A stretch of 35,261 nucleotides of DNA from positions 1 to 35,261 of the forward strand of contig JABXJW010000011.1 in the NCBI GenBank assembly GCA_013375395.1. The letters are read 5' to 3'. Under the pieces are notes generated by a model, which was not told the origin of the DNA, did not search any database, and was given only the letters and a program-made list of their open reading frames with translations. This document shows positions 954-31,478 of this stretch, piece after piece. How positions within the stretch are numbered: position 1 is the stretch's first letter; the number at the start of each line of letters is the position of its first letter. This stretch comes from Desulfobacterales bacterium. GTDB taxonomy: Bacteria; Desulfobacterota; Desulfobacteria; Desulfobacterales; C00003060. Made by a program: the position numbers and the translations under genes.

Positions 954-966
954 GAGGGGTCGGGCA
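954..966 (+). promoter_or_regulatory. Leader element copy 1 (GAGGGGTCGGGCA)
   Basis: Exact copy of the 13-base element, 4 nt before the ATG at 971. The GAGG part could act as a Shine-Dalgarno core, but the TCGGGCA part is not explained by 16S pairing. Confidence 0.75.
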
Positions 967-970
967 ACAA

Positions 971-1135
971 ATGGAAAAAGAGACTTTATGGGACTTAACC
1001 TTTGAGTGCATGCGCTGCGGAGAAATTAGATATAGATCCGTGGTCGCAAAAACAGCCAAGAAAGCGAAGGAGAAGGCACAAATTGAACACCCATGCCATA
1101 CTTACCGTTTCAAAAGGTGGGGAAGGGAAATATGA
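971..1135 (+). CDS. Small zinc-ribbon-like protein (54 aa)
   Basis: A 54-residue ORF starting 4 nt after leader element copy 1. CMRC near residues 14-17 and a later H-P-C-H group (about residues 39-42) could bind one zinc ion. The middle is rich in Lys and Ala (VVAKTAKKAKEKAQ), suggesting a basic helix. It is the first gene of a short operon; its stop lies just before the DUF488 gene, and its last codons carry that gene's G-rich ribosome site. Function unknown; a nucleic-acid-binding or regulatory role would fit a virus early gene but is inference. Confidence 0.65.
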   Translation: MEKETLWDLTFECMRCGEIRYRSVVAKTAKKAKEKAQIEHPCHTYRFKRWGREI

Positions 1136-1136
1136 A

Positions 1137-1496
1137 ATGTTAAAAGAAAGCTATATCGCCAATTGGAAGAACCTACCCGCCGATGCGGTGAAAGTTCGTG
1201 TGGCTCGGCCTAGTCTCTTGGCCCCGCCAAGCTTTTTATTGTATAACTATAAAGATGCGGAGAAATATTTTTTGGAATGCGAAGGATGCTCCAAAATGGA
1301 AGCCCGGAAAAGAGCCTGGGAAGCCGTTGCGTTTGAAGAAATTTTTAGAAAGTATATCCTGAGCCACGGCCGTTCCATAGAAAAGCTGAAGGCCCTTGCT
1401 GAGCTTGCGAAAGAAAAAGATGTTTACCTGATATGCTTCGAAAAAGACTGGCCTTGCCACCGGTTTATTTTATTGGACATGGCTAAAAAGCTGTAG
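1137..1496 (+). CDS. DUF488-like protein (119 aa)
   Basis: The C-terminus has LICFEKDWPCHR (residues 98-109), matching the DUF488 signature in which a Cys-x-Glu stretch is followed by a Cys-His-Arg group. The N-terminal part carries an Arg-rich segment with VKVRVARPS. I choose the ATG at 1137 because GGTGGGGAAGG lies about 10 nt upstream and the previous gene stops at 1135. The frame stays open further upstream from a TTG at 1002, but that stretch overlaps the zinc-ribbon gene and is very basic. The biochemical role of DUF488 is not settled. It shares a transcript with the zinc-ribbon gene. Confidence 0.75.
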   Translation: MLKESYIANWKNLPADAVKVRVARPSLLAPPSFLLYNYKDAEKYFLECEGCSKMEARKRAWEAVAFEEIFRKYILSHGRSIEKLKALAELAKEKDVYLICFEKDWPCHRFILLDMAKKL

Positions 1497-1523
1497 CGAC
1501 CTTTAAATAAGTCGGTGCTACAG
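1491..1523 (+). promoter_or_regulatory. TATA box flanked by perfect 7-bp inverted repeat
   Basis: CTGTAGC (1491-1497) and GCTACAG (1517-1523) are perfect inverted copies that bracket the TATA box TTTAAATAA (1502-1510). This is the geometry of a repressor operator that would block TBP. The left arm overlaps the end of the DUF488 gene. The leader element follows 27 nt after the TATA box. Confidence 0.6.
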
Positions 1524-1537
1524 GACGCCACAAAAAA

Positions 1538-1550
1538 GAGGGGTCGGGCA
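1538..1550 (+). promoter_or_regulatory. Leader element copy 2 (GAGGGGTCGGGCA)
   Basis: Exact copy, 5 nt before the GTG at 1556. The match to copy 1 extends on both sides (AAA before, ACAAA after). Confidence 0.75.
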
Positions 1551-1555
1551 ACAAA

Positions 1556-1696
1556 GTGAAAGTAGACTGGAGTCAAGTTCTAGAAATCTCCGAAGAAACC
1601 GGAGTCGAAAGTAAAAAGGTTGCTGAAGTACTCTCCTACTTTTTCGAAATAGGAGAACCAAAACAGGCCCAGATCATCAAACATTGGGAGTTGTAA
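1556..1696 (+). CDS. Small helix-turn-helix-like protein (46 aa)
   Basis: GTG-start ORF directly after leader element copy 2; first gene of the second early operon. The sequence WSQVLEISEETGVESKKV resembles the helices of a compact HTH domain, and EPKQAQIIKHWE closes it. The size and its place behind a dyad-flanked promoter make an autoregulator plausible, but this is inference. No family is recognised with certainty. The next gene starts 3 nt after its stop. Confidence 0.6.
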   Translation: MKVDWSQVLEISEETGVESKKVAEVLSYFFEIGEPKQAQIIKHWEL

Positions 1697-1699
1697 CAG

Positions 1700-1867
1700 A
1701 TGGGCCGAAGAAGAAGGAAAATGCCAATCAAACAGCCACCTAAAATGCGCTTAGAAGTCCAACTCCTACACGGTCGGCATGAATTCTGGTTTGTGACAGG
1801 GAAACAGTATGATGAGTACCTCGAAACCGGAAAGCTCCTAGGAATGAGAGTAAAGGTGGTTGATTGA
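1700..1867 (+). CDS. Hypothetical basic protein (55 aa)
   Basis: ATG ORF 3 nt after the previous stop. The N-terminus is very basic (GRRRRKMPIK), followed by a beta-rich stretch with EFWFVTGKQYDEYLETGKLLG. The last part looks like a small OB or SH3-like strand set, but no family is recognised. It is part of a run of tiny genes with almost no spacing, which supports it as real. Confidence 0.55.
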   Translation: MGRRRRKMPIKQPPKMRLEVQLLHGRHEFWFVTGKQYDEYLETGKLLGMRVKVVD

Positions 1868-1869
1868 GA

Positions 1870-2031
1870 ATGATCGGCTTTCGGTACACATTGAGTGAGA
1901 GAATCAGGGACCTGGTTGACGCGCTCTCTGAAATCATCAATAACTTGGGTGAGCATCTGATGTTCCGGTTGAGCTGTAAAGCTGATGACCTCAATTATTT
2001 CCTTTCAAGGAAAAGGAGCAAAAATCGATGA
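1870..2031 (+). CDS. Hypothetical protein (53 aa)
   Basis: ATG ORF 2 nt after the previous stop, overlapping the next ATG by 4 nt (ATGA). The sequence is helical (SERIRDLVDALSEIINNLGE) with one Cys and a basic C-terminus (SRKRSKNR). No family recognised. Support comes from tight packing in the operon. Confidence 0.5.
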   Translation: MIGFRYTLSERIRDLVDALSEIINNLGEHLMFRLSCKADDLNYFLSRKRSKNR

Positions 2032-2138
2032 CTGACAAGACAGAATTAGAATACCTGCTGATGTTCGCCCTTGTTATGGGCCTTTTCGATTACGATCTGT
2101 TTCGATTCCTATGGGATGCTCTGCAGGAGGAATTCTAA
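2028..2138 (+). CDS. Hypothetical protein (36 aa)
   Basis: Very short ATG ORF joined to its neighbours by an ATGA overlap at the start and a TAATG overlap at the end. It is acidic and hydrophobic with LLMFALVMGLF in the middle, so it might be a membrane-associated or protein-binding peptide. The coupled overlaps are the main support. Its last codons carry the GGAGGA site of the next gene. Confidence 0.45.
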   Translation: MTDKTELEYLLMFALVMGLFDYDLFRFLWDALQEEF

Positions 2139-2632
2139 TGGCCGAGCATTGCCCGATTTATCCAAATCACAACATCCGAAAGGATGGAACCTGTGCCCGA
2201 CAAGCCTGGTGCATTCCTTACCAGGTAAGGCGTGACCCGCGCTGTTTGATTATAGCAGCTCGGGTCTCTCGTAGTCCTAAAAAGACCCCGGTGCAGCAGG
2301 GAGTGGCTGCAAAAACGAAAAAGGAGGATGAAGAATTGGGTAAGAAGAAGTCCGCACAAGCGGAAACATCTCCGGAAACACCGGTAGAAGAAACGCCGGT
2401 AGCAGAGAAGGAGAAGAAAGTGACAAAGCAACAGCGAGTCTATGAGCGATACCAAGAGGAAATCGCTAAAGGGACAAAGCCCAAGGAAGCCTACGACTTA
2501 GTGGGCCCAGAGTTTGGGATTTCACCGCGAGCAGTGAGAAGCTACGTCTGGCGAGCAGAGCACCCGGAAGAGTTCAAAGCCATGCTGAAGAAATACGCTG
2601 CGGCAAGAAAAGCAAAGAAGGCGGCTGAGTAA
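2138..2632 (+). CDS. Cys-rich N-terminus plus helical DNA-binding-like C-terminus (164 aa)
   Basis: The start at 2138 is chosen because CAGGAGGA sits 6 nt upstream and the start overlaps the previous stop. Residues 1-36 hold C5, H11, C19, C25 and C36, a possible zinc site. Residues 45-95 are a low-complexity linker of Lys, Glu, Pro and Thr. The C-terminal 70 residues are helical with FGISPRAVRSYVWR, which reads like a recognition helix, then a Lys/Ala-rich tail. A transcriptional or DNA-packing role is inference. The stop overlaps the next ATG (TAATGG). Confidence 0.65.
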   Translation: MAEHCPIYPNHNIRKDGTCARQAWCIPYQVRRDPRCLIIAARVSRSPKKTPVQQGVAAKTKKEDEELGKKKSAQAETSPETPVEETPVAEKEKKVTKQQRVYERYQEEIAKGTKPKEAYDLVGPEFGISPRAVRSYVWRAEHPEEFKAMLKKYAAARKAKKAAE

Positions 2633-2847
2633 TGGCCCAGCGAGAATACGAAAAACCCCTGATCGACCTGCCGCACTTCACCAGAGACAAGCAACTATCG
2701 TCATGCTTACAGGTCAGGGACGCAAAAGACGGCAGCCTCTTCTTCAACATCAGAAGCCAGAAAGGAAAAGCCTCAACAAAACTCGGCAGATCTGAAATTG
2801 CGCTGATAGTCCTGGAGCTACAGGCCTGGTTCAACAGAACAGCCTAG
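2632..2847 (+). CDS. Hypothetical protein (71 aa), PC4-like fold possible
   Basis: ATG overlaps the previous stop by one base. The sequence alternates short strands and one C-terminal helix (RSEIALIVLELQAWFN). The order of strands then helix, with a basic middle (NIRSQKGKASTKLG), is reminiscent of PC4-like single-strand binders, but similarity is too weak to claim. It is followed by a T-rich stretch (2851-2865) and a GGGGATGAG site for the next gene. Confidence 0.6.
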   Translation: MAQREYEKPLIDLPHFTRDKQLSSCLQVRDAKDGSLFFNIRSQKGKASTKLGRSEIALIVLELQAWFNRTA

Positions 2848-2879
2848 ACTCTTCTCTTTCTTTTTATGGGGATGAGAAA

Positions 2880-3092
2880 ATGAGATATGAAATTGACAGA
2901 GAACACAATATCGTCGATTTCTACATTGAGGATGAACACGGGCGAGAACAACACTCTGCGATGGGACTTGATGAAGCATCTGAATTGGCAAAAGAACTGA
3001 TGAAAAACCTAGATGCTAGTGAAGAAGCGCCTGACTGCGACAACTGTGATGAACGAATGGGTGAGCCAATGATAAATGAGGGATATCTCTAA
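2880..3092 (+). CDS. Hypothetical acidic protein with CxxC (70 aa)
   Basis: ATG preceded by GGGGATGAG. The first half is strand-rich and acidic, the middle is a helix (DEASELAKELMKNL), and the end has CDNCDERMG. One CxxC suggests a metal site shared between subunits or a partial zinc finger. The stop codon's last base is the A of the next ATG, so translation is probably coupled. Function unknown. Confidence 0.6.
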   Translation: MRYEIDREHNIVDFYIEDEHGREQHSAMGLDEASELAKELMKNLDASEEAPDCDNCDERMGEPMINEGYL

Positions 3093-3286
3093 TGCCCTTT
3101 GAACTTCTGACAAAAGGAAGACCAATAGAGCGGGAACGGATCGCATGCCCAGGTTGCAGCTCAAACATCAGTGTGACCTATGATATTGAAACAAGGGAAA
3201 TTGTTTCATCTACTGACAAAATCGACGGAGACAAAATAATCTGCTTACGCTGCGACACTGTTCTAAAGTGGACGCCGCCAGCTTAA
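3092..3286 (+). CDS. Zinc-ribbon protein (64 aa)
   Basis: Two CxxC knuckles, CPGC near residue 19 and CLRC near residue 51, with about 28 residues between them form a classic zinc ribbon. The intervening region is beta-rich. The start overlaps the previous stop by one base. A T-rich tract (3290-3302) follows. Such ribbons occur in many archaeal virus early genes; the target is unknown. Confidence 0.65.
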   Translation: MPFELLTKGRPIERERIACPGCSSNISVTYDIETREIVSSTDKIDGDKIICLRCDTVLKWTPPA

Positions 3287-3315
3287 ACCCTTCTCTTTTT
3301 TTGTGGTGATAAAAA

Positions 3316-3486
3316 ATGAATGAGGTTCAGCAGTTATTCCTGAAGTTACTAATTCATCAGCCGCTGATCGGCGTAACCTATGAAACTGAAGGCCAAGTTA
3401 GTCTCCATTTCCCCGATGCCGTGATCCAGGTCCCCAAGAATGAGTTGCGCGTGTGCCGAATACTGCAGAGGATCAAAGGAGAGTGA
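3316..3486 (+). CDS. Hypothetical protein (56 aa)
   Basis: ATG preceded by GGTGAT, the archaeal Shine-Dalgarno extension, 6 nt upstream. The protein starts with a helix (NEVQQLFLKLLIHQ), has two short strands, and ends with a basic helix (NELRVCRILQRIKGE). No family recognised. The next gene starts 9 nt after the stop. Confidence 0.55.
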   Translation: MNEVQQLFLKLLIHQPLIGVTYETEGQVSLHFPDAVIQVPKNELRVCRILQRIKGE

Positions 3487-3495
3487 ACGGAGAAA

Positions 3496-3633
3496 ATGAA
3501 GGGCCTAAGATATGTAATAGACATAAAGAAAAGTGACGAAAAAATCTTCTTTGAAGAAGCTTTGTACCCAATGATAAAGAAGGGAATACTCAAGACTAAA
3601 AATATTCACATGCGCGAACAAGAAATCACCTAA
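3496..3633 (+). CDS. Hypothetical protein (45 aa)
   Basis: Last gene of the plus-strand early operon, ATG preceded by GGAG. Mixed alpha/beta with EKIFFEEALYPMIKKG. No family recognised. It converges with the minus-strand operon, whose last stop lies 33 nt away. No clear terminator is seen in that gap. Confidence 0.5.
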   Translation: MKGLRYVIDIKKSDEKIFFEEALYPMIKKGILKTKNIHMREQEIT

Positions 3634-3666
3634 TTTATTACCATAATCATAGTCACAAATTGAGAT

Positions 3667-3867
3667 TTACAAGCCAAATCCTTTGTAACCAAGAATCGCC
3701 AGCAACGCCGCAATCAAAGCAACAATTAACCGGCGCGCCCACTCAGACCAACTATCTTTTTTCAGCGAAGCGACTTCTTTCTCCAAAGCTGTGATACGCT
3801 TATGCAGGTTCACAACTGTCTGGAGTCTCGCTGCGCGTTTGATTTCTTCCTCTTCTTCATCATTCAT
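3667..3867 (-). CDS. Coiled-coil protein with C-terminal membrane segment (66 aa), XhlA/holin-like possible
   Basis: An acidic start (NDEEEEE) leads into a heptad coiled coil (residues about 18-38), then a WSEWARR interface and a single membrane helix with LIVALIAALLAILGY at the end. This layout resembles XhlA-type small membrane proteins next to phage lysis genes. It is the distal gene of the long minus operon and follows the terminase genes, which would suit a late lysis or membrane role. The function is inference. It overlaps the previous gene by 8 nt. Confidence 0.6.
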   Translation of the reverse strand: MNDEEEEEIKRAARLQTVVNLHKRITALEKEVASLKKDSWSEWARRLIVALIAALLAILGYKGFGL

Positions 3868-4054
3868 TTTTGGGACGCAACTTCTTTAGTCTTTTTATGC
3901 ATTCTTTACAGTTATCCGGGCTATTGTCGTTTCCTTGCTCAACTGGTCCAAGCCAAATATACCGACCGCAAAGAGAACGATGGTCTTCTTGAATGTAGTG
4001 CGCTTTTTTAGAAGCGAACCTAGCACCATAAACAAAAGCCCAACCTTCACTCAT
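3860..4054 (-). CDS. Hypothetical Cys-containing protein (64 aa)
   Basis: Starts with an ATGA overlap at the end of the terminase nuclease frame. The sequence has C29 and a C-terminal CKEC group near residues 49-52, followed by basic residues (RLKKLRPK). A zinc-binding role is possible; no family is recognised. Coupled translation with the terminase suggests a packaging-stage protein, but this is context only. Confidence 0.55.
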   Translation of the reverse strand: MSEGWAFVYGARFASKKAHYIQEDHRSLCGRYIWLGPVEQGNDNSPDNCKECIKRLKKLRPKNE

Positions 4055-4815
4055 GGCACAAACACACCTCCGCCTTTCTCATGCTCAACCACAAGAATGT
4101 AACTCAGATTCGCAACGCAGTCAGCGAGGTCAGCTGTGTAGCCCTGGGCCGGCTCAACGCGAAACCGGTTACTCAGCTGGATCCGCTGAAGAAACTTCAT
4201 CTCCGTGGTGAGTGGTTCATACACCGGGGCCCTGAAGTGCCCCATATTAACCAACTCAAGCAGGCACTGATAAATTTCGACGTTGTAGCTGGCTGTAAAG
4301 ACTGTTTCTCGGATATGAATTTTTTTCTGGAGCCGTTGAATAGTTGCTGCTGATTGATGTTGATCTAGAGCGTTATCAACAATTCGGTATTTCCGGTTCA
4401 AGCCCAACAGAAAATCTTCGACTTCAACGATTTGAACCGGGTTCTCTCTTGTTCCCTGCCACAAACGTAGATAATCAGCAATAACCTTCGGTTTTTCAAA
4501 GTGACCCATGGCCAAAGCGTACGCATTACCTTTGAGGCCCGGGTCTAGAGTCACAACATAGCGAGTTCTTGAAGAAGCATGTGGCAGAATATTGGGTCGT
4601 TTCTTGTCAACGCAAGCTACAACTTTATCAGAGATGAAGAAGGCATCAACTACATCAGCAAATTCAGCACCCCACTCCATCATGGCGAAAGCTGAGTCTT
4701 TGTCAAACTCTTCCTGCAGACTTTCCCGCGTAATAGTCGGGTTCATTTGCCAGGTTGGTGCCTGAAACACCAGCATGCGACCTTTACTTCCCCGCCTCAT
4801 TCTCCAAAGCCCCAA
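4051..4815 (-). CDS. terL: Large terminase subunit, C-terminal nuclease frame
   Basis: Encodes the RNase H-like nuclease half of a large terminase, which cuts concatemeric DNA during packaging. The acidic metal sites are the Asp in TLDPGLKGNAY, the region IVDNALDQHQ, and the Asp in ADLADCVANL. The TWQMNPTITRE segment is the usual linker after the ATPase domain. The frame is +1 to the ATPase frame and overlaps it by 32 nt. No strong ribosome site precedes its possible starts (TTG at 4815, an in-frame ATG at 4800). A +1 shift at AAG-TAA would yield one protein of about 502 aa, the normal terminase length. Separate translation of a two-part terminase is the alternative. Confidence 0.85.
   Translation of the reverse strand: MGLWRMRRGSKGRMLVFQAPTWQMNPTITRESLQEEFDKDSAFAMMEWGAEFADVVDAFFISDKVVACVDKKRPNILPHASSRTRYVVTLDPGLKGNAYALAMGHFEKPKVIADYLRLWQGTRENPVQIVEVEDFLLGLNRKYRIVDNALDQHQSAATIQRLQKKIHIRETVFTASYNVEIYQCLLELVNMGHFRAPVYEPLTTEMKFLQRIQLSNRFRVEPAQGYTADLADCVANLSYILVVEHEKGGGVFVP
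4783..4796 (-). other. Putative +1 recoding site in terL
   Basis: On the minus strand the ATPase frame reads GCG GGG AAG then TAA. Skipping the T gives AAA GGT CGC and enters the nuclease frame. The G-rich run directly before the shift codon could act as an internal Shine-Dalgarno stimulator, as in bacterial RF2. The exact slip codon cannot be fixed from sequence; a -2 shift gives the same frame. Confidence 0.5.
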
Positions 4816-5560
4816 TTATTTGGTCTTGCATAACGTACCAATAGTTTTCCCAAAGTATGCCTTGCCTGCCTGCAGGCGAGCTGATATTGATTACTTTTCC
4901 GTCGCCTCGCCACTTGAAGGGTTTGACATTCGGTTTTAAGGCGTTATACACCATTGTGCCGGACTGGTTACCGGTTTTGGTGTCAATGTAGTGGCCAATC
5001 TCATCGAAGATGATAACGATGCATTGGTAGCCCCGGCCTCCACGGGCTGAAGAGCTATGCGCAAGCGCGATGATGTTCTTGTAGAACTCCAATTCGCCGC
5101 CTTTCTCTCTGACATCGACAATACATTCTTCGAGATACCAGCTACTTTCAGCCAACGTTAAAATCGCGTCAAAAGTCACATCGATAGCCTGGTCCCTATT
5201 CGTCGCCACATTCATGGCGTAAATGTTTTTCTTGGCCAATCTGTAGTACTTGCGCGGCTCCTTAATCTGCAACAGTTTATAGACTTCAAACAATGTAGCA
5301 TCAGCAGACATTTCTGTTTTAGCGCTCTTTCTGCCCATCACAAGAACCAATTCATCATAGAGGCTTACCGGTGTTATGTTGCAGCGCCAGCATTCTTCGT
5401 TAAATGGGCAAGGAAAAGGAAACCCGTAAAAATCCATTAACACACATTTCTGATTCGGAGAAAACTCGTAAGGCATGTCCAGTATGTATTTCGTGAAAGC
5501 CATTGGGCACACTTTGGCGCGGCGAACGCAAGCAACGAAATCCTGTTTATCCAGGCTCAT
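4784..5560 (-). CDS. terL: Large terminase subunit, N-terminal ATPase frame
   Basis: Packaging motor ATPase. Walker A is GRKSAKT (residues 76-82), Walker B is IVIIFDE (181-187, D186 and E187), and the coupling motif ISSPAG is at 226-231. The domain ends after ENEAGK at residue 258, where a typical terminase would continue into its nuclease. I choose the ATG at 5560 because GAGGAG lies 4 nt upstream; earlier in-frame starts overlap the previous gene more deeply. The gene order (TerS candidate, two small genes, TerL) fits packaging. The downstream nuclease half lies in the +1 frame. Confidence 0.88.
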   Translation of the reverse strand: MSLDKQDFVACVRRAKVCPMAFTKYILDMPYEFSPNQKCVLMDFYGFPFPCPFNEECWRCNITPVSLYDELVLVMGRKSAKTEMSADATLFEVYKLLQIKEPRKYYRLAKKNIYAMNVATNRDQAIDVTFDAILTLAESSWYLEECIVDVREKGGELEFYKNIIALAHSSSARGGRGYQCIVIIFDEIGHYIDTKTGNQSGTMVYNALKPNVKPFKWRGDGKVINISSPAGRQGILWENYWYVMQDQIIGALENEAGK

Positions 5561-7387: not shown

Positions 7388-8094
7388 TCTTTAGCCACCT
7401 CGTCATACCAGTACAAGAACATCGCATTACAGCTGATGTGGCAAAGATGACTTAGACCGGATTCTGGATCTATATTCTCACCTTTGTGGTATGCAAGCAC
7501 GTGTCTATAGAGAGCGGCCAGAATGCGCGGAGCTTCAAGGCCTTTCTTCCAGGTTTCGATGCCATATTTTTCTGCGCCCATAGTCAGTACTTTGGCAATG
7601 TCTTCGACGAATTCTGGCACCAATAGATCAACCATTGGTTTACCCTGGTCATACTTTACGCCTGTTCCTCGTGAGAATTCAGCTACCTTTCTGCGTGCCT
7701 TGATAGCTTCAAGAAGCGCACTTTCTTCAATGAACACCTGGCCATGCGTCATTAAGAAAATATGGTAACGCATGTCTTCGCTGGTTAAGATATAGACTGG
7801 CTTACGATATTCAGCGTAAGCAGCCCGGATTTCCATGTGCGTACCAATGCTTGCAGCTTCACCATGAGTGATAGCGATAACAAAGTCCGCTGTACCAATA
7901 CCTATATTGACGTCTTCATAAACAGCTTGCTCCGCCTTTTCCATACTGATCTCTTCAGTAGCCTTCATTCGTTTCCATTCTTCGGCAAACGGGTTATCCA
8001 CAACAAAGCCTGCTTCTTCCAGCTTTTTCTCTAGCTTAAACCCGTATTCCATCAATTGGCTCGGATGAGCTAAGTAGAGTCTTTCTTTTCGCAT
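7384..8094 (-). CDS. Nucleoside 2-deoxyribosyltransferase-like / dATP-dGTP diphosphohydrolase-like fusion (236 aa)
   Basis: Residues 1-115 look like a nucleoside 2-deoxyribosyltransferase: YLAHPS (7-12), TADFVIAI (D70) and SIGTHMEI (catalytic-type E88), then KPVYIL. Residues 142-230 match the dATP/dGTP diphosphohydrolase N-terminal family (PF18909/DUF5664): KYDQGKPMVDLLVPE, TMGAEKYG, ALYRHVLAYHKGE and DPESGLSHLCHISCNAMFL. Together they could process deoxynucleotides during replication. The ATG at 8094 is chosen because leader element copy 3 ends 1 nt before it; the frame is open upstream but would run through that element. Domain identities are strong; substrates are not visible. Confidence 0.8.
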   Translation of the reverse strand: MRKERLYLAHPSQLMEYGFKLEKKLEEAGFVVDNPFAEEWKRMKATEEISMEKAEQAVYEDVNIGIGTADFVIAITHGEAASIGTHMEIRAAYAEYRKPVYILTSEDMRYHIFLMTHGQVFIEESALLEAIKARRKVAEFSRGTGVKYDQGKPMVDLLVPEFVEDIAKVLTMGAEKYGIETWKKGLEAPRILAALYRHVLAYHKGENIDPESGLSHLCHISCNAMFLYWYDEVAKD

Positions 8095-8219
8095 TTGCCC
8101 GACCCCTCCATTTCTCCGAATAACTTTTTGTATACACAATAGCCGAAAACATCGCAATGTGGAAATCCATCATCTAGACAAAGCCCACAAATCGGAGGAA
8201 GACAACACTCATCGCTCAT
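8070..8219 (-). CDS. Cys-rich small protein (49 aa)
   Basis: Follows the PolB stop by 1 nt, with GAGGAGG 7 nt upstream of its ATG, so initiation is well supported. Cysteines at 5, 6, 11, 14, 22 and 28 and a His at 21 suggest a metal-binding knot. Its C-terminus runs through leader element copy 3 (giving EGSG) and overlaps the start of the next gene by 25 nt. No family recognised. Confidence 0.6.
   Translation of the reverse strand: MSDECCLPPICGLCLDDGFPHCDVFGYCVYKKLFGEMEGSGKCEKKDST
8096..8108 (-). promoter_or_regulatory. Leader element copy 3 (GAGGGGTCGGGCA)
   Basis: Exact copy on the minus strand, 1 nt before the ATG at 8094. It lies inside the 49-aa gene in mid-operon, with no convincing TATA box, so here it must act on the RNA rather than mark a promoter. 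Confidence 0.75.
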
Positions 8220-8220
8220 T

Positions 8221-10434
8221 TCATAACCTCCTCTGCCCGTTCAACATCTCATAAATCGATTTGCTATCGTAACCGAGAGTAGATTCCAGGACGCGAGCTA
8301 ACACATCCGCAATTCTTTTCTTGTAATACTTATAGTCCAGCAATTCATTGGGCGCGTGAAGGTGAGCCGGCCGGAAGCCCCGCACTGTCTTAACAAAACT
8401 TATCTCGTCGCCAAAACCTAGTTTGACGCCTTTCTTTTCAAATTGATAAGTAAGTTTGCTGTACATGCTGGTCTTGGCATAGTCATGCGGGTCCTTGCTG
8501 AGCTCAACAGTCATGGTGAAAAGACGATATGGAAACTTTTCAAGGCTGTAATAATCCCAAATAGCTTTGTCAACATTCTCACCTGCGAAGTAAGTATTGA
8601 GAACTTCTTCCAGGGCGTTATCGCAAATGCGAGGCAAATGACGGCCTTTAAGACCAGAACCGTGAAATATGAAATGATCACCTTCTTGTAGAACATAATT
8701 CTTTTCTTCGTAGAATATGCCTGCATCGTACTTGTCGACGTCTAAGCTGAGATAGTCTCCTCTGAATTGTGGAGGCACAAGTGTACGAAGATACTCGGTG
8801 CATTCTTTTGAAAGGTCCGGGCCAACATAGTAAACTCCGTCAGTATCAACTTCGATAAGCTGCACTTCAGGATGCTTGTCAAGAAAGTCTACAGCCTGTT
8901 TCATAAAGTAACGCCCGATCCCGGTTGTCAGTATGGCCACTAAAACGCTGCCCCACCTTGCGTAGCGATTACCATGATATCCATAGCTCGCATTCACACA
9001 GACTTTTAGGGCCCACTGTTGGCAGTAGAGACGCTTGTTCTGCGGGTCTTTCTTCATCTGCTTTTTTATCTCAGCCCGGCGAGACATGAATTCAGCAAAA
9101 CGCTTTCTGGTAACACTGGCCACATCCAGGTCAATCTCGCATTTCACCTGGCCAAGCTTAGCATCCGGCACCTCAACAATGTTGCCATCAAACTTCATTT
9201 CGCCCAGCGGCCAAGTACGCGATATAAGCTTGATAGACTCAGGCGACAAATTGTAGCACATCATAATCGAAGGATACATACTCTTGAAGTCGAGTTTCTT
9301 TACAGGCTTGAAAAGCCCAGCCTGGTACAACTCACAGAGGCCACCGCCGAAAAGCTTTCTTTCTCCCGCAAAAATCTCTGGGAACCTATCCTTGTTAATC
9401 TTGTCAGCTACGATACCAAGCTTCGTAAAATCTCGCCCGTAAATATACCTCGGGATATGACTTGGGTATCGTTCGATGAGCATGTTGAGTGGCGCATCGA
9501 ATATTTCAGCTAAAGCGTACAAGTTAGGCAAATAAACTTCTGTGGCGAGCCGATAGGTAAGATGAGCATCAGAACTGCAATATTCTATTAACTCTTCATG
9601 CGTTAAACTACTCATTTCATAATAATCTACTTCGACCACTTTCTCTTCCGGGAAGAAGTACCGGCCCACAGTTTTCAATCCATGGCTCTTAATGCCGATT
9701 AAACTGCTGTCCATACGGATTTCAAATTCAAGATCAAAATGCTGCCGACCGTTGATGCGGATAAGATTGACGCTCTTTCCTTTGCCTCCACCGGTGCTTG
9801 TGTATCCTAGCTTTCTCCGGCCCTTCAATATGTAGACGTTTCCATTATTGCGGCCAATTCTGAAAGGAATGCCTAGGATGTTGCAGCGTTGCATGACGTA
9901 AGGGAAATCGAAGCCGGAGCCGTTCTTTGTTGTGACAATATCTGGATTCTTTGAATTAGTGGACCTAATGAAATTCTGGATGATGTCTCTTTCATCACCA
10001 GCCCAGGATTCAATGCCGTCCTGAGTTTCCGTTGATATTGCGATTATCTTTTCCTTTCGAGGTGACGGAAACAAAGCCGAACGTTTGTTGACTTCAGTTT
10101 CAATGTCGAAAGACATCACACTAGGCAACGGGCTTTCAATTTTGAAGCCTCGCTCACAAACTATCCGCTGAAGTAGAGACAATTCCTCGCAACTATGAAC
10201 GCATCGATTATCATACATGTCCTTCTCTGTTGGGAAGAAACACTTGTAGAACATCCTTCGCTGCATATCTGACAGACTTTTTTTCGTAACTTTAATGGCG
10301 GCCCCAATCGGCATCGTACTGTAGAAGAACGGCTTGAAAGGCGGGTCCACAGTCTCAGGTTTCCCGCCGCCTATGGGCCAAATATGCAGCTTAGTTTCGC
10401 CAAATATGTTAACTGTCTCCGCACTCAGAAGCAT
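8221..10434 (-). CDS. polB: Family B DNA polymerase (737 aa)
   Basis: Replicative polymerase with 3'-5' exonuclease. Exo I is SFDIETE (D110, E112), Exo II is NGSGFDFPY (D176), Exo III is YCSSD (Y285, D289). Polymerase motif A is DFKSMYPSI (D382), motif B is KVCVNASYG (477-485), motif C is DTDG (530-533). All catalytic residues are present. At 737 aa it is compact relative to cellular PolB, as is common in viruses. The ATG at 10434 lies 3 nt after leader element copy 4 and inside the end of the upstream gene. It shares the operon with a primase-helicase, forming a near-complete replisome. Confidence 0.95.
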   Translation of the reverse strand: MLLSAETVNIFGETKLHIWPIGGGKPETVDPPFKPFFYSTMPIGAAIKVTKKSLSDMQRRMFYKCFFPTEKDMYDNRCVHSCEELSLLQRIVCERGFKIESPLPSVMSFDIETEVNKRSALFPSPRKEKIIAISTETQDGIESWAGDERDIIQNFIRSTNSKNPDIVTTKNGSGFDFPYVMQRCNILGIPFRIGRNNGNVYILKGRRKLGYTSTGGGKGKSVNLIRINGRQHFDLEFEIRMDSSLIGIKSHGLKTVGRYFFPEEKVVEVDYYEMSSLTHEELIEYCSSDAHLTYRLATEVYLPNLYALAEIFDAPLNMLIERYPSHIPRYIYGRDFTKLGIVADKINKDRFPEIFAGERKLFGGGLCELYQAGLFKPVKKLDFKSMYPSIMMCYNLSPESIKLISRTWPLGEMKFDGNIVEVPDAKLGQVKCEIDLDVASVTRKRFAEFMSRRAEIKKQMKKDPQNKRLYCQQWALKVCVNASYGYHGNRYARWGSVLVAILTTGIGRYFMKQAVDFLDKHPEVQLIEVDTDGVYYVGPDLSKECTEYLRTLVPPQFRGDYLSLDVDKYDAGIFYEEKNYVLQEGDHFIFHGSGLKGRHLPRICDNALEEVLNTYFAGENVDKAIWDYYSLEKFPYRLFTMTVELSKDPHDYAKTSMYSKLTYQFEKKGVKLGFGDEISFVKTVRGFRPAHLHAPNELLDYKYYKKRIADVLARVLESTLGYDSKSIYEMLNGQRRL

Positions 10435-10627
10435 TGGTGCCCGACCCCTCCTGCTCCTTCAATCTCGTGTATTCTTCGATCAGAATGTCAATAATCTGGG
10501 ATCTCTGAAGCTTTTTGCGTTCATATTCTTCGCGATGTTTCTGGTAAAGCATACCAGAGACCGCGCTAATAACCGAAACAAGAAAAGTGAGTATGCTTAT
10601 GGCGATAATGATGAGCTCAATGTTCAT
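10409..10627 (-). CDS. Membrane-anchored coiled-coil protein (72 aa)
   Basis: An N-terminal membrane helix (IIIAISILTFLVSVISAVSG) is followed by a charged coiled coil (KHREEYERKKLQR). The start overlaps the primase stop (ATGA at 10627-10624) and the end overlaps the PolB start by 26 nt. Its codons in the overlap cover leader element copy 4, giving EGSG. It could anchor a replication complex to the membrane or act in lysis; neither is shown. Confidence 0.6.
   Translation of the reverse strand: MNIELIIIAISILTFLVSVISAVSGMLYQKHREEYERKKLQRSQIIDILIEEYTRLKEQEGSGTNASECGDS
10438..10450 (-). promoter_or_regulatory. Leader element copy 4 (GAGGGGTCGGGCA)
   Basis: Exact minus-strand copy 3 nt before the PolB ATG, preceded by G (GGAGGGG). 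It is inside the upstream 72-aa gene without a TATA box, again pointing to action at translation. Confidence 0.75.
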
Positions 10628-14886: not shown

Positions 14887-15339
14887 TTACTCTCCGGGTT
14901 TTGTTTTGGCCAAGCTTTTGAGCACGTCTTCTTCAAGCATCACAATGTAGTCGTAGTAGTCTTTGCCCGGAACTTTGCCAAGGTTCATTATGTAGAATCG
15001 CTTGCGAGTTAGCGGCGTGAAGACTAGAATCTTGTCCTCTAGCAACTTATGCTTCAGCAGGATTGTCCATTCTTTACCGGTCTGTGGGTCCTCCACGTCA
15101 ACGACGGGGATAGGCCCGTATCTTGTCTTGATCATTCGTGGTTCATCAAGACATTCAACCAGGACCGGTTGCTTCACTTTGAATTCTGCGAAGTCTCGCC
15201 TCTTGGCTTTGTTGGCCAGCGTGACCAACTGGTCTGCTGATAGTTCTTTAGTCTCTGAAAGCAGATCTTTGGCTTTCTGTTTTGGCACCAATATCGGGTG
15301 CAGACTTAGATACTTGAAGGCTTTTTCATCTTTTTTCAT
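14887..15339 (-). CDS. Possible OB-fold single-strand DNA-binding protein (150 aa)
   Basis: First gene of the replication operon, starting 3 nt after leader element copy 5. Residues 50-135 are strand-rich with VLVECLDEPRMI, PIPVVDVEDPQTGKEWTILL and RKRFYIMNLG, resembling an OB-fold barrel. A helical N-terminus and a Lys-rich tail flank it. Its place ahead of a nuclease, methylase, primase-helicase and polymerase makes a single-strand binding role reasonable, but no diagnostic motif is present. Confidence 0.65.
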   Translation of the reverse strand: MKKDEKAFKYLSLHPILVPKQKAKDLLSETKELSADQLVTLANKAKRRDFAEFKVKQPVLVECLDEPRMIKTRYGPIPVVDVEDPQTGKEWTILLKHKLLEDKILVFTPLTRKRFYIMNLGKVPGKDYYDYIVMLEEDVLKSLAKTKPGE

Positions 15340-15342
15340 GGT

Positions 15343-15355
15343 TGCCCGACCCCTC
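15343..15355 (-). promoter_or_regulatory. Leader element copy 5 (GAGGGGTCGGGCA)
   Basis: Exact minus-strand copy, preceded by G, 3 nt before the ATG at 15339. A TATA box lies about 33 nt upstream, so the element would be near the 5' end of the mRNA. Confidence 0.75.
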
Positions 15356-15365
15356 CTTTATTGTA

Positions 15366-15400
15366 CACGATTTTCGTGACTGTGAAAAGCTTTTTAAACC
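15366..15400 (-). promoter_or_regulatory. Promoter of replication operon with small dyad
   Basis: On the minus strand a TATA box GGTTTAAAAAGC covers 15389-15400. A 5-bp dyad CACGA-TTT-TCGTG (15366-15378) lies where transcription would start, a possible operator. This drives the 15339-to-3667 operon. Confidence 0.55.
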
Positions 15401-15462
15401 ATAAAACAACATTATCTTGGGTGCCTCCTAGAGGTGCCTGCGGGAATCTCGTTGTAGTGGTC

Positions 15463-15475
15463 TGCCCGACCCCTC
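15463..15475 (-). promoter_or_regulatory. Leader element copy 6 (GAGGGGTCGGGCA), no adjacent start codon
   Basis: Exact minus-strand copy, preceded by G, with a TATA box CATTTAAAAACG (15495-15506) 19 nt upstream. No ATG, GTG or TTG follows within 40 nt. The region to the next gene (15340-15692, 353 nt) otherwise holds a direct repeat GGTGCCT (15419-15425 and 15433-15439), a short ORF with its own AGGAGG site (15326-15412, 28 aa, minus) and the replication promoter. It could be a leader RNA or a relic of a lost gene. Confidence 0.65.
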
Positions 15476-15541
15476 CGAATTCCCGTGAGAGCAACGTTTT
15501 TAAATGAGTCTAACGATGCTAAATGAACGAGGAAAGAAATC

Positions 15542-15649
15542 ATGCCTGATAGGATTTTGGCGACGCTTCTGGCCTTCGACCTTTGCTTGGGAATGATATT
15601 AGTTTTCTGCATTTTCGTTATGATCAAAATGCTACGGAAGAAGACTTGA
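15542..15649 (+). CDS. Possible 35-aa single-span membrane peptide
   Basis: Plus-strand ATG ORF with CGAGGAAAG upstream, about 35-40 nt downstream of the shared TATA-like TTTTTAAAT (15497-15505). The product is an almost pure membrane helix (LLAFDLCLGMILVFCIFVM) followed by a basic KMLRKK end. Size and hydrophobicity fit a viral membrane peptide, yet a chance ORF cannot be excluded. Confidence 0.35.
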   Translation: MPDRILATLLAFDLCLGMILVFCIFVMIKMLRKKT

Positions 15650-15692
15650 AGCGTTTTTAGGTTCATATTTTCCCATCTCTGAATTGATCAAC

Positions 15693-21944: not shown

Positions 21945-22258
21945 CCTTTGTACAAACCACCTTTCGCGTAAGTTTTCTTGATGTATGTGGCCAGTTTTTC
22001 TTGGCCACTCTTCCAGAACTTGTTTTCTAGGCCATCAGGGCTTCTTCTGGAGCGGAAAATCCCGGCCGCTAAGTCAGCGCTAATATGCTTGATTCTTACC
22101 GGGACCGAAGACAACGGAACAGTCGTGTAAGGTTTGAGTTGCGTGTCAATTTCTGCATCTGCTTCTTCTATGCAATCGTCGATTTCAGCGTCATATGTTA
22201 AGGCAGTGACTTTTTCACCCAGCCGCTTTCGCACATCCACTTTGGTGCAATAAACCAT
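21941..22258 (-). CDS. Head-tail connector/adaptor, gp6-like (105 aa)
   Basis: Helical protein with YCTKVDVRKRLG, then DDCIEEADAEIDTQLKPY, and HISADLAAGIFRSRR, the usual pattern of gp6-like connector rings. It is the first gene of the tail operon and starts 5 nt after leader element copy 7. The next genes are gp10-like and tail terminator proteins, which supports the call. Confidence 0.72.
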   Translation of the reverse strand: MVYCTKVDVRKRLGEKVTALTYDAEIDDCIEEADAEIDTQLKPYTTVPLSSVPVRIKHISADLAAGIFRSRRSPDGLENKFWKSGQEKLATYIKKTYAKGGLYKG

Positions 22259-22263: not shown

Positions 22264-22276
22264 CGCCCGACCCCTT
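22264..22276 (-). promoter_or_regulatory. Leader element copy 7 (variant AAGGGGTCGGGCG)
   Basis: Eleven of 13 bases match the consensus; the core AGGGGTCGGGC is kept. It lies 5 nt before the ATG at 22258. The loss of the leading G of GAGG weakens pairing with 16S rRNA while the TCGGGC part stays intact. Confidence 0.7.
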
Positions 22277-22322: not shown

Positions 22323-22375
22323 TTTTACAAAAATAAACTTAAAAAACAAATGGTCTTAAAAAATAAGTAAGAAAA
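22323..22375 (-). terminator. T-rich termination region after head operon
   Basis: Reading the minus strand after the wHTH gene there are repeated T-runs (TTATTTTTT, GTTTTTT, TATTTTTG) over about 50 nt. Such tracts terminate archaeal transcription and would separate the head operon from the tail promoter. Confidence 0.55.
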
Positions 22376-22391
22376 TCAAACTGACAAGTAG

Positions 22392-23208: not shown

Positions 23209-23213
23209 TTTTC

Positions 23214-26935: not shown

Positions 26936-26950
26936 CCTTCCAAGTTTTCT

Positions 26951-26975
26951 GTACCCAAAAAAAAGAAGGGGGTAC
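26951..26975 (-). terminator. Hairpin with T-run between head genes and fibre genes
   Basis: GTACCC (26951-26956) and GGGTAC (26970-26975) are inverted copies; on the minus strand the loop holds eight T residues. It may partly terminate transcription or adjust the ratio of capsid to fibre gene products. No promoter is seen after it, so readthrough must serve the genes below. Confidence 0.5.
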
Positions 26976-26984
26976 GTAGAGAGT

Positions 26985-27488: not shown

Positions 27489-27672
27489 CTTCTACTCCAC
27501 TCCCTTCAACCAGGGCCATTAGGCTCTTCAGTTCCTTCAAAGATGTTACTGAAAGATCAAGTTCCGTTTCGTCCGTTCGAGATTCGGCCGTTACTGAACC
27601 GTCAACTTCCCTGAAGAGAATCCATTCAGCATTGGAGGCTAACTCCGTTCTTACTTTTTCTTGTTCTTCCAT
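27481..27672 (-). CDS. Hypothetical acidic protein (63 aa)
   Basis: Acidic ORF between two structural genes. It has EWILFREVDGSVTAE and ELDLSVTSLKELKSLMALV, a strand-then-helix pattern. Its stop lies inside the start of the next gene. It could be a small structural or assembly factor. No family recognised. Confidence 0.55.
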   Translation of the reverse strand: MEEQEKVRTELASNAEWILFREVDGSVTAESRTDETELDLSVTSLKELKSLMALVEGSGVEVE

Positions 27673-27688
27673 TTTGAGTCACCTTATT

Positions 27689-28090
27689 CTAGGCTGGTGT
27701 GCCTATGACTACGTAGTTTACGTTGGCTGCTACTGTGGCTGCAATAGGAGTAACGTTTGCTGATGTGCCGTTTACTGCTGTAGGCTTCCAGACTTTGAGA
27801 TCGATATGCCCGGCGACTGCGCCTTTAGCAGCGGAGACCCACATCGCGTCAGCAACTGGGTCACCCGCTAAAGATGCTACAACCCTGTCTATCACTGAGA
27901 ACTCCGCTGTGAGGTCCACGTCCAAGGTGCCGGTTACAGCCCCTTGGCCCATGTAGACTTTCTTGACTGAAAGCCCTGTTTCCAAGAGGAGAGTGCGTAT
28001 AATGTCGAAAGTGTCCTTGACAAATTCCGCGTCTTTGCTTCTGCTCTTGAACAGAGCGATTGCCGCTTGAAGATCAGAATAGTTTGTCAT
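27689..28090 (-). CDS. Structural protein next to major capsid protein (133 aa)
   Basis: ATG at 28090 with GGGGTA upstream; an in-frame TTG at 28096 is less likely. N-terminal helices (SDLQAAIALFKSRSKD) lead into a strand-rich part with GAVTGTLDVDLTAEF and HIDLKVWKPTAVNGT. The end, ANVNYVVIGTPA, is like receptor or decoration proteins. It directly follows the major capsid gene, so a capsid-associated role is likely but inferred. Confidence 0.6.
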   Translation of the reverse strand: MTNYSDLQAAIALFKSRSKDAEFVKDTFDIIRTLLLETGLSVKKVYMGQGAVTGTLDVDLTAEFSVIDRVVASLAGDPVADAMWVSAAKGAVAGHIDLKVWKPTAVNGTSANVTPIAATVAANVNYVVIGTPA

Positions 28091-28108
28091 TGTCAATACC
28101 CCGCTGTT

Positions 28109-29101
28109 CTAAGGCGTAACATCCAGTCTGCAGATTGCTTCTGTTCTCAACGTTCCAAGGCCGTATCGCCTAGTGCTTATGGCTCCTTGGTAGAGCTTCT
28201 CTTCGTACGGCTGCGTTGTGATGTCCCGTCTCATTGTGCATACTGCTGCTTTGTCCAGGTCAACTAGGTAGACCAAATCGGAAGCGTCAACCATCAGGTC
28301 GGTCTCTACGATCTTGAAGCCTAGGTATGTCTCTCCAAGGACACCTCTTGCTACATCAGCCTTGTCACCAAAGTAGAAAGCATTGATGAACTTGTCATCG
28401 TTCCACAGGTCTGCTATCTCGTTTGGATGAATGATCGCCGCGTCGGCTGTGAATCCTTCAGTTTTGAGCGTTGTCCAAGCGTTTACCAGATCGGCCCATG
28501 TAAGAGTTCCTGAAGCAGCCACATCTACATTCGCACCGCCGGCCAAGTCTGCCTCTGCTATGGCATCGTAAAGCGCTATAATGTCGGTTGTTAACTGCTC
28601 CTCTAGAAGCTGTCCACAGTCAGCAATTGCTCTCTGAAGAACTGCTAGTGGCATGTCTTCAATGTATGACTGGCTGAAAAGTGCGTCTTGTCCCCACTCA
28701 TATTCCAGAGTGATGTCAACCGGTGTAAAGCGCTCTGGCGATTGTATTGGTGGCCCTTCACTGATCCGCCATACTGAACCTCTTACTGCTAGGAAGAATC
28801 TTCGTAGTGGTTCGGTTACGTCAATCTTCCAGATAATATCGTCTGCTACAGCTATATTTGTCGCCGCTTCAATGACTAGATCATGAATGACGCCGAGCGC
28901 GTCGGCCTGTACATTCACAGCACTGACATCTGCGGTCAGACCTTCTCGAATGAATTTCTGATACAGCGCGTTTCCTCTAGTCTTCTCTAGAAAATGTTCC
29001 TGCCAGTCCAGGTCGTCCATCCTGTTGACGGACTCTTCCAGCCTGTTGACGTACTCGCCCGCTTCGATCTTCATTCTCGCTTCTCTAAGAATGTCCATCA
29101 T
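28109..29101 (-). CDS. HK97-fold major capsid protein (330 aa)
   Basis: Forms the icosahedral shell. Features include a long N-terminal helix, an E-loop-like region, TWADLVNAWTTLKTEGF then AIIHPNEIADLWND (P-domain helix and the usual capsid strand), GETYLGFKIVETDLM and the end ISTRRYGLGTLRTEAICRLDV. This succession is the HK97 major capsid pattern. The ATG at 29101 is chosen because GGTGATC is directly upstream and it follows the decoration gene stop; a frame from 29134 would overlap that gene. It lies after a protease-scaffold and a decoration gene. Confidence 0.85.
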   Translation of the reverse strand: MMDILREARMKIEAGEYVNRLEESVNRMDDLDWQEHFLEKTRGNALYQKFIREGLTADVSAVNVQADALGVIHDLVIEAATNIAVADDIIWKIDVTEPLRRFFLAVRGSVWRISEGPPIQSPERFTPVDITLEYEWGQDALFSQSYIEDMPLAVLQRAIADCGQLLEEQLTTDIIALYDAIAEADLAGGANVDVAASGTLTWADLVNAWTTLKTEGFTADAAIIHPNEIADLWNDDKFINAFYFGDKADVARGVLGETYLGFKIVETDLMVDASDLVYLVDLDKAAVCTMRRDITTQPYEEKLYQGAISTRRYGLGTLRTEAICRLDVTP

Positions 29102-29108
29102 GATCACC

Positions 29109-29516
29109 CTATATCGTGCACTGGATGCCGACAAATATGATGAACTCGTCGTCCTCTTCGCCTGCGCTCATCATCGCTTGCCCGCCTCCTACTCCTGTAG
29201 TCGCTGCTATCGCCTTGCCATTTGTGTCTGACGCTACTGGATCGCCTGCTGCTACGATTCCGCCTGCAAGCACCTTCACAAGCCCGAACTTCAGGAGAGG
29301 AACAAAGTCTCCGTCGTCTCCCGCTTTGAGGAAGACACCGTCGAATATTCCCGCTCCCGCTCCATCGGCGTGAGGTGGCCAGGTTTCGCCATCAGCGAGC
29401 GCCCCAAGTTGCCCCTTAGTTACGGTGCCGTCTAGCTCCACGGTGATTTTTACATCACCGGACATCAGTGATTCTCCAAGTTCTACCTCTGAAACCAAAT
29501 CTTCTGGTGCTGCCAT
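29109..29516 (-). CDS. Capsid decoration/stabilising protein, DUF2190-like (135 aa)
   Basis: Small beta-rich protein with ITVELDGTVTKGQLGAL, AAGDPVASDTNGKAIAATT and DDEFIIFVGIQ. The AGDPV-x-SD-x-NGKA motif with a late strand pair is typical of DUF2190-type cement proteins that bind capsid surfaces. It is directly upstream of the major capsid gene. About 80 nt without a gene lie between it and the protease-scaffold gene; nothing is seen there. Confidence 0.72.
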   Translation of the reverse strand: MAAPEDLVSEVELGESLMSGDVKITVELDGTVTKGQLGALADGETWPPHADGAGAGIFDGVFLKAGDDGDFVPLLKFGLVKVLAGGIVAAGDPVASDTNGKAIAATTGVGGGQAMMSAGEEDDEFIIFVGIQCTI

Positions 29517-29597
29517 ATTCTATCCCTCTTCTTATCCGTCTCCTTTCCCCGTTCCATCGCGGGTACTTTGGGCGTTGTCATCTAAGTGAATTGATGA

Positions 29598-31349
29598 CTA
29601 GGAATTCGCTAATTTTTCAATTAGCTTCTGTATCATGGTGTTCTGTCTGTAAGGCCCGTAGCCCCATTGATGAGGTACTCTCTGCAATACAGATTCTTTG
29701 AGTTTGCTGATGACTTCGTCTTTCTTGGCGAATCCGTGTTTCTTCATGAAGGCTTCGACTATCTCCGCCTGCATGGGTTCCGGCACCTGTTCAACACTGG
29801 TTACCGGTGCGGCTTGTAGTTCCTGCAGTTTCGCGTTTAGGCCGTCAATCTCAGCTTGTAAAGCAACTTTCTGAGATTCCAGGCTCTTCAGTTCTTCCTG
29901 TTTGCTCGCTAACTCAGAACGCAAGTTTTCAACCGTAGCTGCCTGATCGGTGACCTGTGGCTCTAACTCTTCGACTTGCTCCTGAAGCTTCTTAATAGTT
30001 TTCCGTAGGCCTTCAACTGTACCTTCTGTTGGTACGCACTTTTGCTGGTCATCGTTCCATGTCTCTTCACCAATTACGCAGCTATGTTCATCTCTTTCAG
30101 GCTCTTCTTCTTGCTGTTCAGATAGGGCTTTTGCTAGGTAACCGACGACTTTATCTTCTGATACTTTCTTGGCTATCAGATCGACAGCTTCTTCTAGAGT
30201 CTTAGCGAGGCCTTTGTCTAGCGAATGTTGCACTACTCTGGCCTTTATGGCGCCGCAAGTTTTCTTGGCTGTTTCTTCGTCGTATCCTTGGGCTCTCATG
30301 TCGGCCATGCATTGCTCCCAAGGATATTCCGCTTGTTCTTTTAGCCACTGAGCTAAACCGATGATGAAAGGTCTTTTCCCTTCCTCGATGATTGGGACGC
30401 ATTTTTCGCCGTCCCAGTTTTCCTTGCCGATTACGCAGCCATGCTCATCAGTTTCAGGGGCCTGAGTCGCAGCGTCTTCTTGTTCCTTGAGTTTGAGCAC
30501 TTTGGCAAAATCTTCAGGTTTCCAGCCTTCCCAGCTTGCTCCTTTTCCGCCAGGCACATGATAGTAGATGTGACCACAGACTGCAGACACTTGTTCTTCT
30601 GTGTACTCAGGGTTGCTGCTGTTTACATTCGCAACACACTTGTCCCACCAGTCTTTAGGTGGGCGCTCGTTTTCTTCTAGGGCTTCGTACAATTGGCCTA
30701 TCTTTTCTTTGTCCATTAGGTTTTCACCTTTCTGCCCTTTTCTAGGTGCAGGGTGACGGCTCTTAGCCATTTTCAAATGCTTGATTACGCCTTCCCAGAT
30801 CTGAACCGTGGTTTTCGGGTCGCCTGGGTTGAGATTCTTGAGAAGCGACAGATGAGTGAATTCTATGCCTTTGGGGGCTATTCCGTTAAGTTTTTCCAGT
30901 ATTTTCCAGTCGAACTCAACAGAACAGTGTTTTATGTTGCCCTTCTCTATGTCATTTAGAACTCGCTCATCATTAAGTGAAGCTATGTATTCTATTGCGC
31001 CATCTTCATAGTGGGCACCCATAACTTCGCCTTCAACTGGAAAATAGTGATCTAGAAACAGAGGTTTGCCGATTAAGCTTTGAACCGACTTTTCCAGTTC
31101 TTCTTCTAAGAAAACGCGCACGTTTGGCCATTCATCTGGATGATAAGTTTTGACTGGATGAATTGCTTTTCCGGCTATGAGATGCTTGTATGGCCTTTGA
31201 ATTTCCACGTCGCTGATCCAAGCAAAACCTTCTTCTAGCTTCGCTTGGAGTTTGCCACAGACCTGCCTTGCAGTTTCTTCGTCATAATTCTGAGTCTTCA
31301 TCATGTCAGCAACGCAAGCGTCAAAGTCCGCCCATTTCCCGAATGGCAT
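29598..31349 (-). CDS. Prohead protease fused to scaffold-like coiled coil (583 aa)
   Basis: Residues 42-150 form a prohead-protease-like domain with IGKPLFLDHY (H101), GEVMGAHYEDG and KHCSVEFDW (S143), consistent with a His/Ser active site. The rest is modular: three copies of a C-x3-M or C-x3-V helix ending in CG (residues 12-35, about 230-262, about 345-372), two copies of an EHxCVIG...KCVP unit, and a coiled coil at about 445-530. The C-terminal helix-rich end fits a scaffold. Fused protease-scaffolds are known in tailed phages. It is the first gene of the head operon; a TATA box lies about 50 nt upstream. Confidence 0.8.
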   Translation of the reverse strand: MPFGKWADFDACVADMMKTQNYDEETARQVCGKLQAKLEEGFAWISDVEIQRPYKHLIAGKAIHPVKTYHPDEWPNVRVFLEEELEKSVQSLIGKPLFLDHYFPVEGEVMGAHYEDGAIEYIASLNDERVLNDIEKGNIKHCSVEFDWKILEKLNGIAPKGIEFTHLSLLKNLNPGDPKTTVQIWEGVIKHLKMAKSRHPAPRKGQKGENLMDKEKIGQLYEALEENERPPKDWWDKCVANVNSSNPEYTEEQVSAVCGHIYYHVPGGKGASWEGWKPEDFAKVLKLKEQEDAATQAPETDEHGCVIGKENWDGEKCVPIIEEGKRPFIIGLAQWLKEQAEYPWEQCMADMRAQGYDEETAKKTCGAIKARVVQHSLDKGLAKTLEEAVDLIAKKVSEDKVVGYLAKALSEQQEEEPERDEHSCVIGEETWNDDQQKCVPTEGTVEGLRKTIKKLQEQVEELEPQVTDQAATVENLRSELASKQEELKSLESQKVALQAEIDGLNAKLQELQAAPVTSVEQVPEPMQAEIVEAFMKKHGFAKKDEVISKLKESVLQRVPHQWGYGPYRQNTMIQKLIEKLANS

Positions 31350-31399
31350 TTATGAAGGAGCCTTCTGTAAGAAACTTTTGTGTGGAAATTATTAACAAC

Positions 31400-31430
31400 A
31401 CTTTTATATATAAGTTTGATGTTAAACTTA
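31400..31430. promoter_or_regulatory. Divergent promoter between head operon and portal operon
   Basis: TTTTATATATAAG (31402-31414) is nearly symmetric and can serve as a TATA box for both strands. TAAGTTT (31411-31417) and AAACTTA (31424-31430) are perfect inverted copies overlapping its right side. A second TATA-like CTTTTTAAG lies at 31441. A shared operator for capsid and portal genes is likely. Confidence 0.55.
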
Positions 31431-31465
31431 CCAAAACTCACTTTTTAAGCAAGGATGCGGGAATG

Positions 31466-31478
31466 GAGGGGTCGGGCC
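31466..31478 (+). promoter_or_regulatory. Leader element copy 8 (GAGGGGTCGGGCC)
   Basis: Twelve of 13 bases match, preceded by G. It lies 52 nt downstream of the shared TATA box and 15 nt before the GTG at 31494, farther than in other copies. Confidence 0.7.

Follow-up and report, generated by a model that had tools for sequence, protein, structure and literature searches.

Start-associated sequences (SAS) have been known in actinobacteriophages since 2011, with no proven function. That of the cluster K mycobacteriophages (GGGATAGGAGCCC) is 13 nt long, is present in 11-19 copies and typically lies 3-7 nt before starts; its authors noted that the first base and positions 10-13, which do not pair with the ribosomal RNA, are conserved as well (PMC3203893). 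The role of the cluster K SAS is unknown and an effect on translation is unproven, and some copies are preceded by an extended start-associated sequence (ESAS), which contains a putative promoter and its inverted repeat (PMC11373665). The Microbacterium phages of cluster EF carry ten copies of a 13-nt sequence, GGGAAAGGACCCC, at the position of the ribosome-binding site (RBS), each with at most one mismatch from the consensus (PMC7302621). Here we describe a 13-nt repeat, GAGGGGTCGGGCA, found in contig JABXJW010000011.1, which is filed under a Desulfobacterales genome and was analysed over its whole length of 35,261 nt (the window). Taking its features together, we read this repeat as a SAS-type initiation element in an archaeal virus, of a kind already known from actinobacteriophages.

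The 13-mer occurs in six exact copies, at 954 and 1538 on the plus strand and at 8096, 10438, 15343 and 15463 on the minus strand (lower coordinate given). Two near-exact copies are located at 31466 on the plus strand (GAGGGGTCGGGCC, one mismatch) and at 22264 on the minus strand (AAGGGGTCGGGCG, two mismatches). A preliminary description of the contig, made by eye from the sequence, had listed these same eight copies, six exact and two near-exact, and all of them were recovered. The 11-nt core AGGGGTCGGGC is present eight times in the window; other, unrelated 11-mers do not exceed three copies each, and the commonest 11-mer of each of 60 dinucleotide shuffles reached 2-4 copies. A loose scan allowing three mismatches gave 11 matches against 5.6 expected, which understates the enrichment because loose matches are counted. 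The stretch GGGC is invariant in 8/8 copies, and five copies have an extra G at the 5' side of the 13-mer. The flanks of most copies are unrelated to each other, which makes selection on the short sequence likelier than block duplication. Along both genome arms, all eight copies are in sense with transcription. No Rfam match was found in the window.

The most conspicuous property of the element is its position, since in seven of the eight copies a start codon is found 1-6 nt after the core (0-5 nt after the 13-mer). On the plus strand, the copy at 954..966 lies 4 nt before the ATG at 971 of a 54-aa Cys-containing open reading frame (ORF) and the one at 1538..1550 lies 5 nt before the GTG at 1556 of a 46-aa ORF. 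On the minus strand, the copy at 8096..8108 is 1 nt before the ATG at 8094 of a deoxyribosyltransferase/dATP-dGTP diphosphohydrolase fusion, and that at 10438..10450 is 3 nt before the ATG at 10434 of the DNA polymerase B (PolB). The same strand has a copy at 15343..15355, 3 nt before the ATG at 15339 of a 150-aa ORF (the first long one of the replication operon), and another at 22264..22276, 5 nt before the ATG at 22258 of a Mu Gp36-like head-tail gene. The copy at 31466..31478 (plus strand) directly adjoins (0 nt) a TTG at 31479, the tentative start of a 49-aa ORF (31479-31628) ending where the portal gene starts. The remaining copy, 15463..15475 (minus strand), is close to where the mRNA of the replication operon is predicted to begin and has no start codon after it. 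Finding at least 7/8 copies before starts has a probability of 6e-8 with a lenient definition of start, and of 4e-6 when conditioned on a Shine-Dalgarno (SD)-like 4-mer at the same place. As a positive control, the same measurement was carried out on part of the mycobacteriophage Anaya, in which an annotated start follows 2-8 nt after 15 of the 17 sites and one site has the opposite direction. The preliminary description had counted six copies before starts; those six stand, and the number rises to seven with 31466 and its tentative TTG. It had also spoken of a virus-wide initiation or leader signal. An initiation or leader element is indeed the best reading, because the copies are at the RBS, always in sense, and sometimes inside operons and upstream coding sequence, but virus-wide is too strong for seven of about 43 starts.

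Three of the copies (8096, 10438 and 15343) are operon-internal and overlap the 3' end of an upstream ORF in the same frame, which stops just past the next start. The copy at 10438 is within the 3' end of a 72-aa ORF (10409-10627), and the one at 8096 extends into the 3' end of what may be a small Cys-rich ORF beginning just after PolB; the upstream ORFs at 8096 and 15343 are small and unconfirmed. These overlapping copies, together with the lack of a TATA box at 10438, argue against a purely promoter-level signal. The earlier contention that the operon-internal copies must be recognised on RNA is a reasonable argument, although not a conclusive one. A protein-coding repeat (E-G-S-G, in frame in the three operon-internal copies) was discarded as a general cause, the other copies being in leaders or in other frames.

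The genes of the window are those of a head-tailed virus and include PolB (8221..10434, minus strand; Pfam DNA_pol_B, 1.6e-22), a Prim-Pol/D5 primase-helicase, a Cas4-like nuclease, an HK97-type capsid and an integrase fragment. The 150-aa ORF served by the copy at 15343 (14887..15339, minus strand) has no family match and gives a low-confidence mixed alpha/beta model. Capsid relatives at 55-57% identity were found in three Bathyarchaeota metagenome-assembled genomes (MAGs), and one at 59% in a viral contig. In the bin that holds the window there was no TFIIB and no match of the small subunit rRNA to the archaeal model, and we infer that this bin is bacterial. Judging from these sequences, our best reading is that the contig comes from a bathyarchaeal virus and was placed in a bacterial MAG by a binning error, and the virus probably infects the archaeal class Bathyarchaeia. 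An attempt to close the window into one circle failed because its ends do not match. These non-joining ends and the integrase, which is missing its N-terminus, indicate that the window is incomplete, so further copies of the element may exist.

The 16S genes read from bathyarchaeal genomes end in ...CCGGATCACCTCCT. The segment (A)GGAGGGGUC of the element is predicted to pair with the tail GAUC(A)CCUCCU with one rRNA A bulged and the mRNA side unbroken, so that 8-10 contiguous mRNA bases, the GGTC half included, can pair around the bulge. The earlier claim that GAGG is the part that pairs with the 16S rRNA was incomplete; only GGGC(A), which has no pairing partner in the tail, is left unexplained. 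The duplex energies at PolB, the 150-aa ORF, the nucleotide-metabolism fusion and the 31479 ORF (-15.3, -15.3, -14.6 and -14.6 kcal/mol) are the top four among 43 starts, and the median is -14.6 kcal/mol for genes with the element and -8.65 kcal/mol for the others (P = 8e-4).

We consider it fairly probable that the 13-mer acts on the viral mRNA as a ribosome-binding element of fixed sequence tied to start codons, with a second contact holding its 3' part. Its 5' part, (A)(G)GAGGGGUC, would base-pair with the 3' tail of the 16S rRNA (5'-GAUCACCUCCU-3') with one rRNA A bulged. Through this pairing the 30S subunit would be recruited at selected genes: early or replication genes, the DNA polymerase, nucleotide metabolism and two genes of the head module. 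GGGC(A), between the paired stretch and the start codon, would be kept constant by the second contact. The likeliest partner is an RNA-binding factor, of the virus or of its host, or else an initiation factor, which would set initiation jointly at all these genes. We infer, then, an action on RNA that raises or times initiation; a dedicated recognition factor or regulator is possible but unproven. A stronger version, which we hold only tentatively, is a translational regulon in which a viral or host factor, acting along with the 16S pairing, reads the GGGC half and turns initiation at the replication and head genes on or off, or sets its timing. If this were true, archaeal and actinobacterial viruses would have reached a start-associated strategy independently. 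An archaeal-virus example, different in sequence and alike in anatomy, would show the strategy to extend beyond one phage group, and the element would offer a compact, testable case for the role of the conserved part beyond ribosome pairing.

Some of these observations would also be expected if the element were only a strong SD sequence, spread by copying (recombination or gene-cassette exchange carrying the RBS with its gene) and not subject to any further recognition. It does pair well with the 16S tail, and the promoters of the copies at 954 and 1538 resemble each other, as a duplication would leave them. A plain strong SD accounts for the position and the 5' half of the element but not for its 3' half, where GGGC lacks a partner in the tail and yet does not vary. 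Besides, the spacing to the start is longer than at the other SD sequences of this virus, most flanks do not resemble each other, and the perfect complement of the tail (AGGAGGUGAUC), which would pair better (-18.8 kcal/mol), is not the sequence that has been repeated. We regard this explanation as unlikely.

A transcription-level signal, such as a downstream promoter or initial-transcribed element, possibly within a promoter-operator unit whose TATA box is flanked by inverted repeats, appears less likely still. The preliminary description had seen a TATA box upstream of five copies. We found TATA-like boxes (at least 7/8) upstream of six (954, 1538, 15343, 15463, 22264 and 31466) versus 4/36 other starts, and this association is what speaks for such a signal. 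The boxes of 954 (TTTATATT) and 1538 (TTTAAATA) start 37 and 36 nt upstream, respectively. That of 15463 (TTTAAAAA) starts 29 nt upstream, which puts this copy at the expected 5' end of the replication-operon mRNA. For 22264 we have taken TATATAAA, which starts 42 nt upstream, as the plausible box because the nearest-scoring one is too close to the element. The two left promoters (908-966 and 1493-1550) also share the motif GTRGCRACC immediately 5' of the TATA box, surrounded by imperfect inverted repeats, a resemblance that would fit a promoter unit and is not significant alone. On the other hand, the operon-internal copy at 10438 has no TATA box and the box at 8096 is weak, and the distance to the TATA box varies, whereas the distance to the start codon stays within 1-6 nt. 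Inverted repeats are visible at 954, 1538, 15463 and 31466, but 20-70 of 150 shuffles equal them, so that the ESAS-like operator suggested by eye did not rise above the shuffle expectation.

The asymmetric, nearly identical and dispersed copies, one of them (15463) without a start codon, might also be imagined as a DNA site (a recombination boundary, a replication or packaging site, or the operator of a DNA-binding protein) that falls between genes by chance; the narrow distance to the starts and the constant direction on both arms are not expected from such a site, and we give this idea very little credence. Least credible of all is a mimic of host 16S rRNA (helix 39/40 region) that titrates or borrows a ribosomal protein, as its only basis is GGGGTCGGGCA, found in sense in 2/12 bathyarchaeal 16S genes and absent from the other ten, within a variable hairpin. 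The match, 11 nt identical to the element, involves two related 16S genes, and with 12 genes its rough chance probability is a few per cent, so that it is probably fortuitous.

Several observations weigh against a ribosome-binding element with a second contact. The copy at 15463 is the sole one without a start codon (it would be inside an ORF at 15412-15666, if this ORF is real), the TTG taken as the start after 31466 is tentative, and the copy at 22264 has no GAGG. The SD-to-start spacing at the element is 9-14 nt (mean 11.7) versus a mean of 9.2 at other starts, and the full bulged pairing may therefore not be used on the ribosome. As many as 13% of composition shuffles pair as well as the bare 13-mer, a fraction that drops to 2% with the extra 5' G. 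No recognition protein was identified. Finally, the relatives of PolB (37-41% identity) and of the capsid (49-59%) do not have the element or any comparable start-linked repeat; these relatives are distant, with no close relative among them, which is the main weakness of our interpretation.

The element matches the anatomy of the cluster K SAS, the close known parallel, which the preliminary description had not mentioned. Both are asymmetric 13-nt repeats with many identical copies, in sense and a few nt before starts (PMC3203893, PMC11373665, PMC12699233), and both have an SD core, conservation beyond the rRNA pairing, near-absence from the hosts and a promoter upstream of some copies. They differ in sequence, the element not fitting the consensus even with two mismatches allowed, and in layout, since the element has its SD at the 5' end, before GGTCGGGC, whereas in the SAS AGGAG is followed by CCC. 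The predicted 16S pairing is stronger here (-11 to -15 kcal/mol for most copies) than in Anaya (about -6.6 kcal/mol). The cluster K SAS is confined to non-structural genes, whereas the element is also found operon-internally across coding sequence and before head genes, the two head-module copies (22264 and 31466) being the imperfect ones. The host is probably archaeal instead of actinobacterial, and there is no significant ESAS-like inverted repeat. The repeats of cluster EF have in common with the element a 13-nt motif at the RBS position, but their sequence is unrelated, all of their copies are linked to an upstream ESAS and their host is bacterial. Ordinary archaeal SD sites (GGAGGTGAT) are also upstream of starts and pair with the 16S 3' end, without the fixed identity over 11-13 nt, the rRNA bulge needed for full pairing, the extra GGGC or the longer spacing. 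As for the virus itself, it resembles, by gene set only, the Bathyarchaeia head-tailed viruses 'Fuxiviridae' and 'Kunpengviridae', with Caudoviricetes gene sets, a Cas4-like nuclease and a methyltransferase, and with PolB common to Kunpengvirus and the window (PMC10848311). A term-based search of that paper found no mention of such a repeat, and a term-based search of the literature turned up no archaeal virus reported to have one.

The element is nearly absent from the host class. A single exact 13-mer was found among 257 Bathyarchaeia genomes, and the rest of the bin has none, which disposes of a genome-wide host element. By chance or not, this sole copy immediately precedes the ATG of a gene whose product resembles, by eye, a TfoX N-terminal protein. 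Pattern scans of IMG/VR gave, among the matches listed, only single, mostly GC-rich chance matches.

A few minor observations concern individual loci. The frame upstream of the TTG at 31479 (ATG CGG GAA TGG...) is also in frame with the 31479 ORF. The product of this ORF, taken by eye for a ribbon-helix-helix protein, had no family or PDB match, and the single-sequence model gave one helix, so this assignment was dropped. Between the copies at 15463 and 15343 there is a possible 28-codon leader ORF (15326-15412, minus strand) that starts near 15412 with a good AGGAGG site; its overlap with the next start is suggestive of translational coupling, and the copy at 15343 overlaps its end. One viral contig related by its PolB carries a different interspersed repeat, ATCAAGGATA, with 13 copies in 16.5 kb on both strands.

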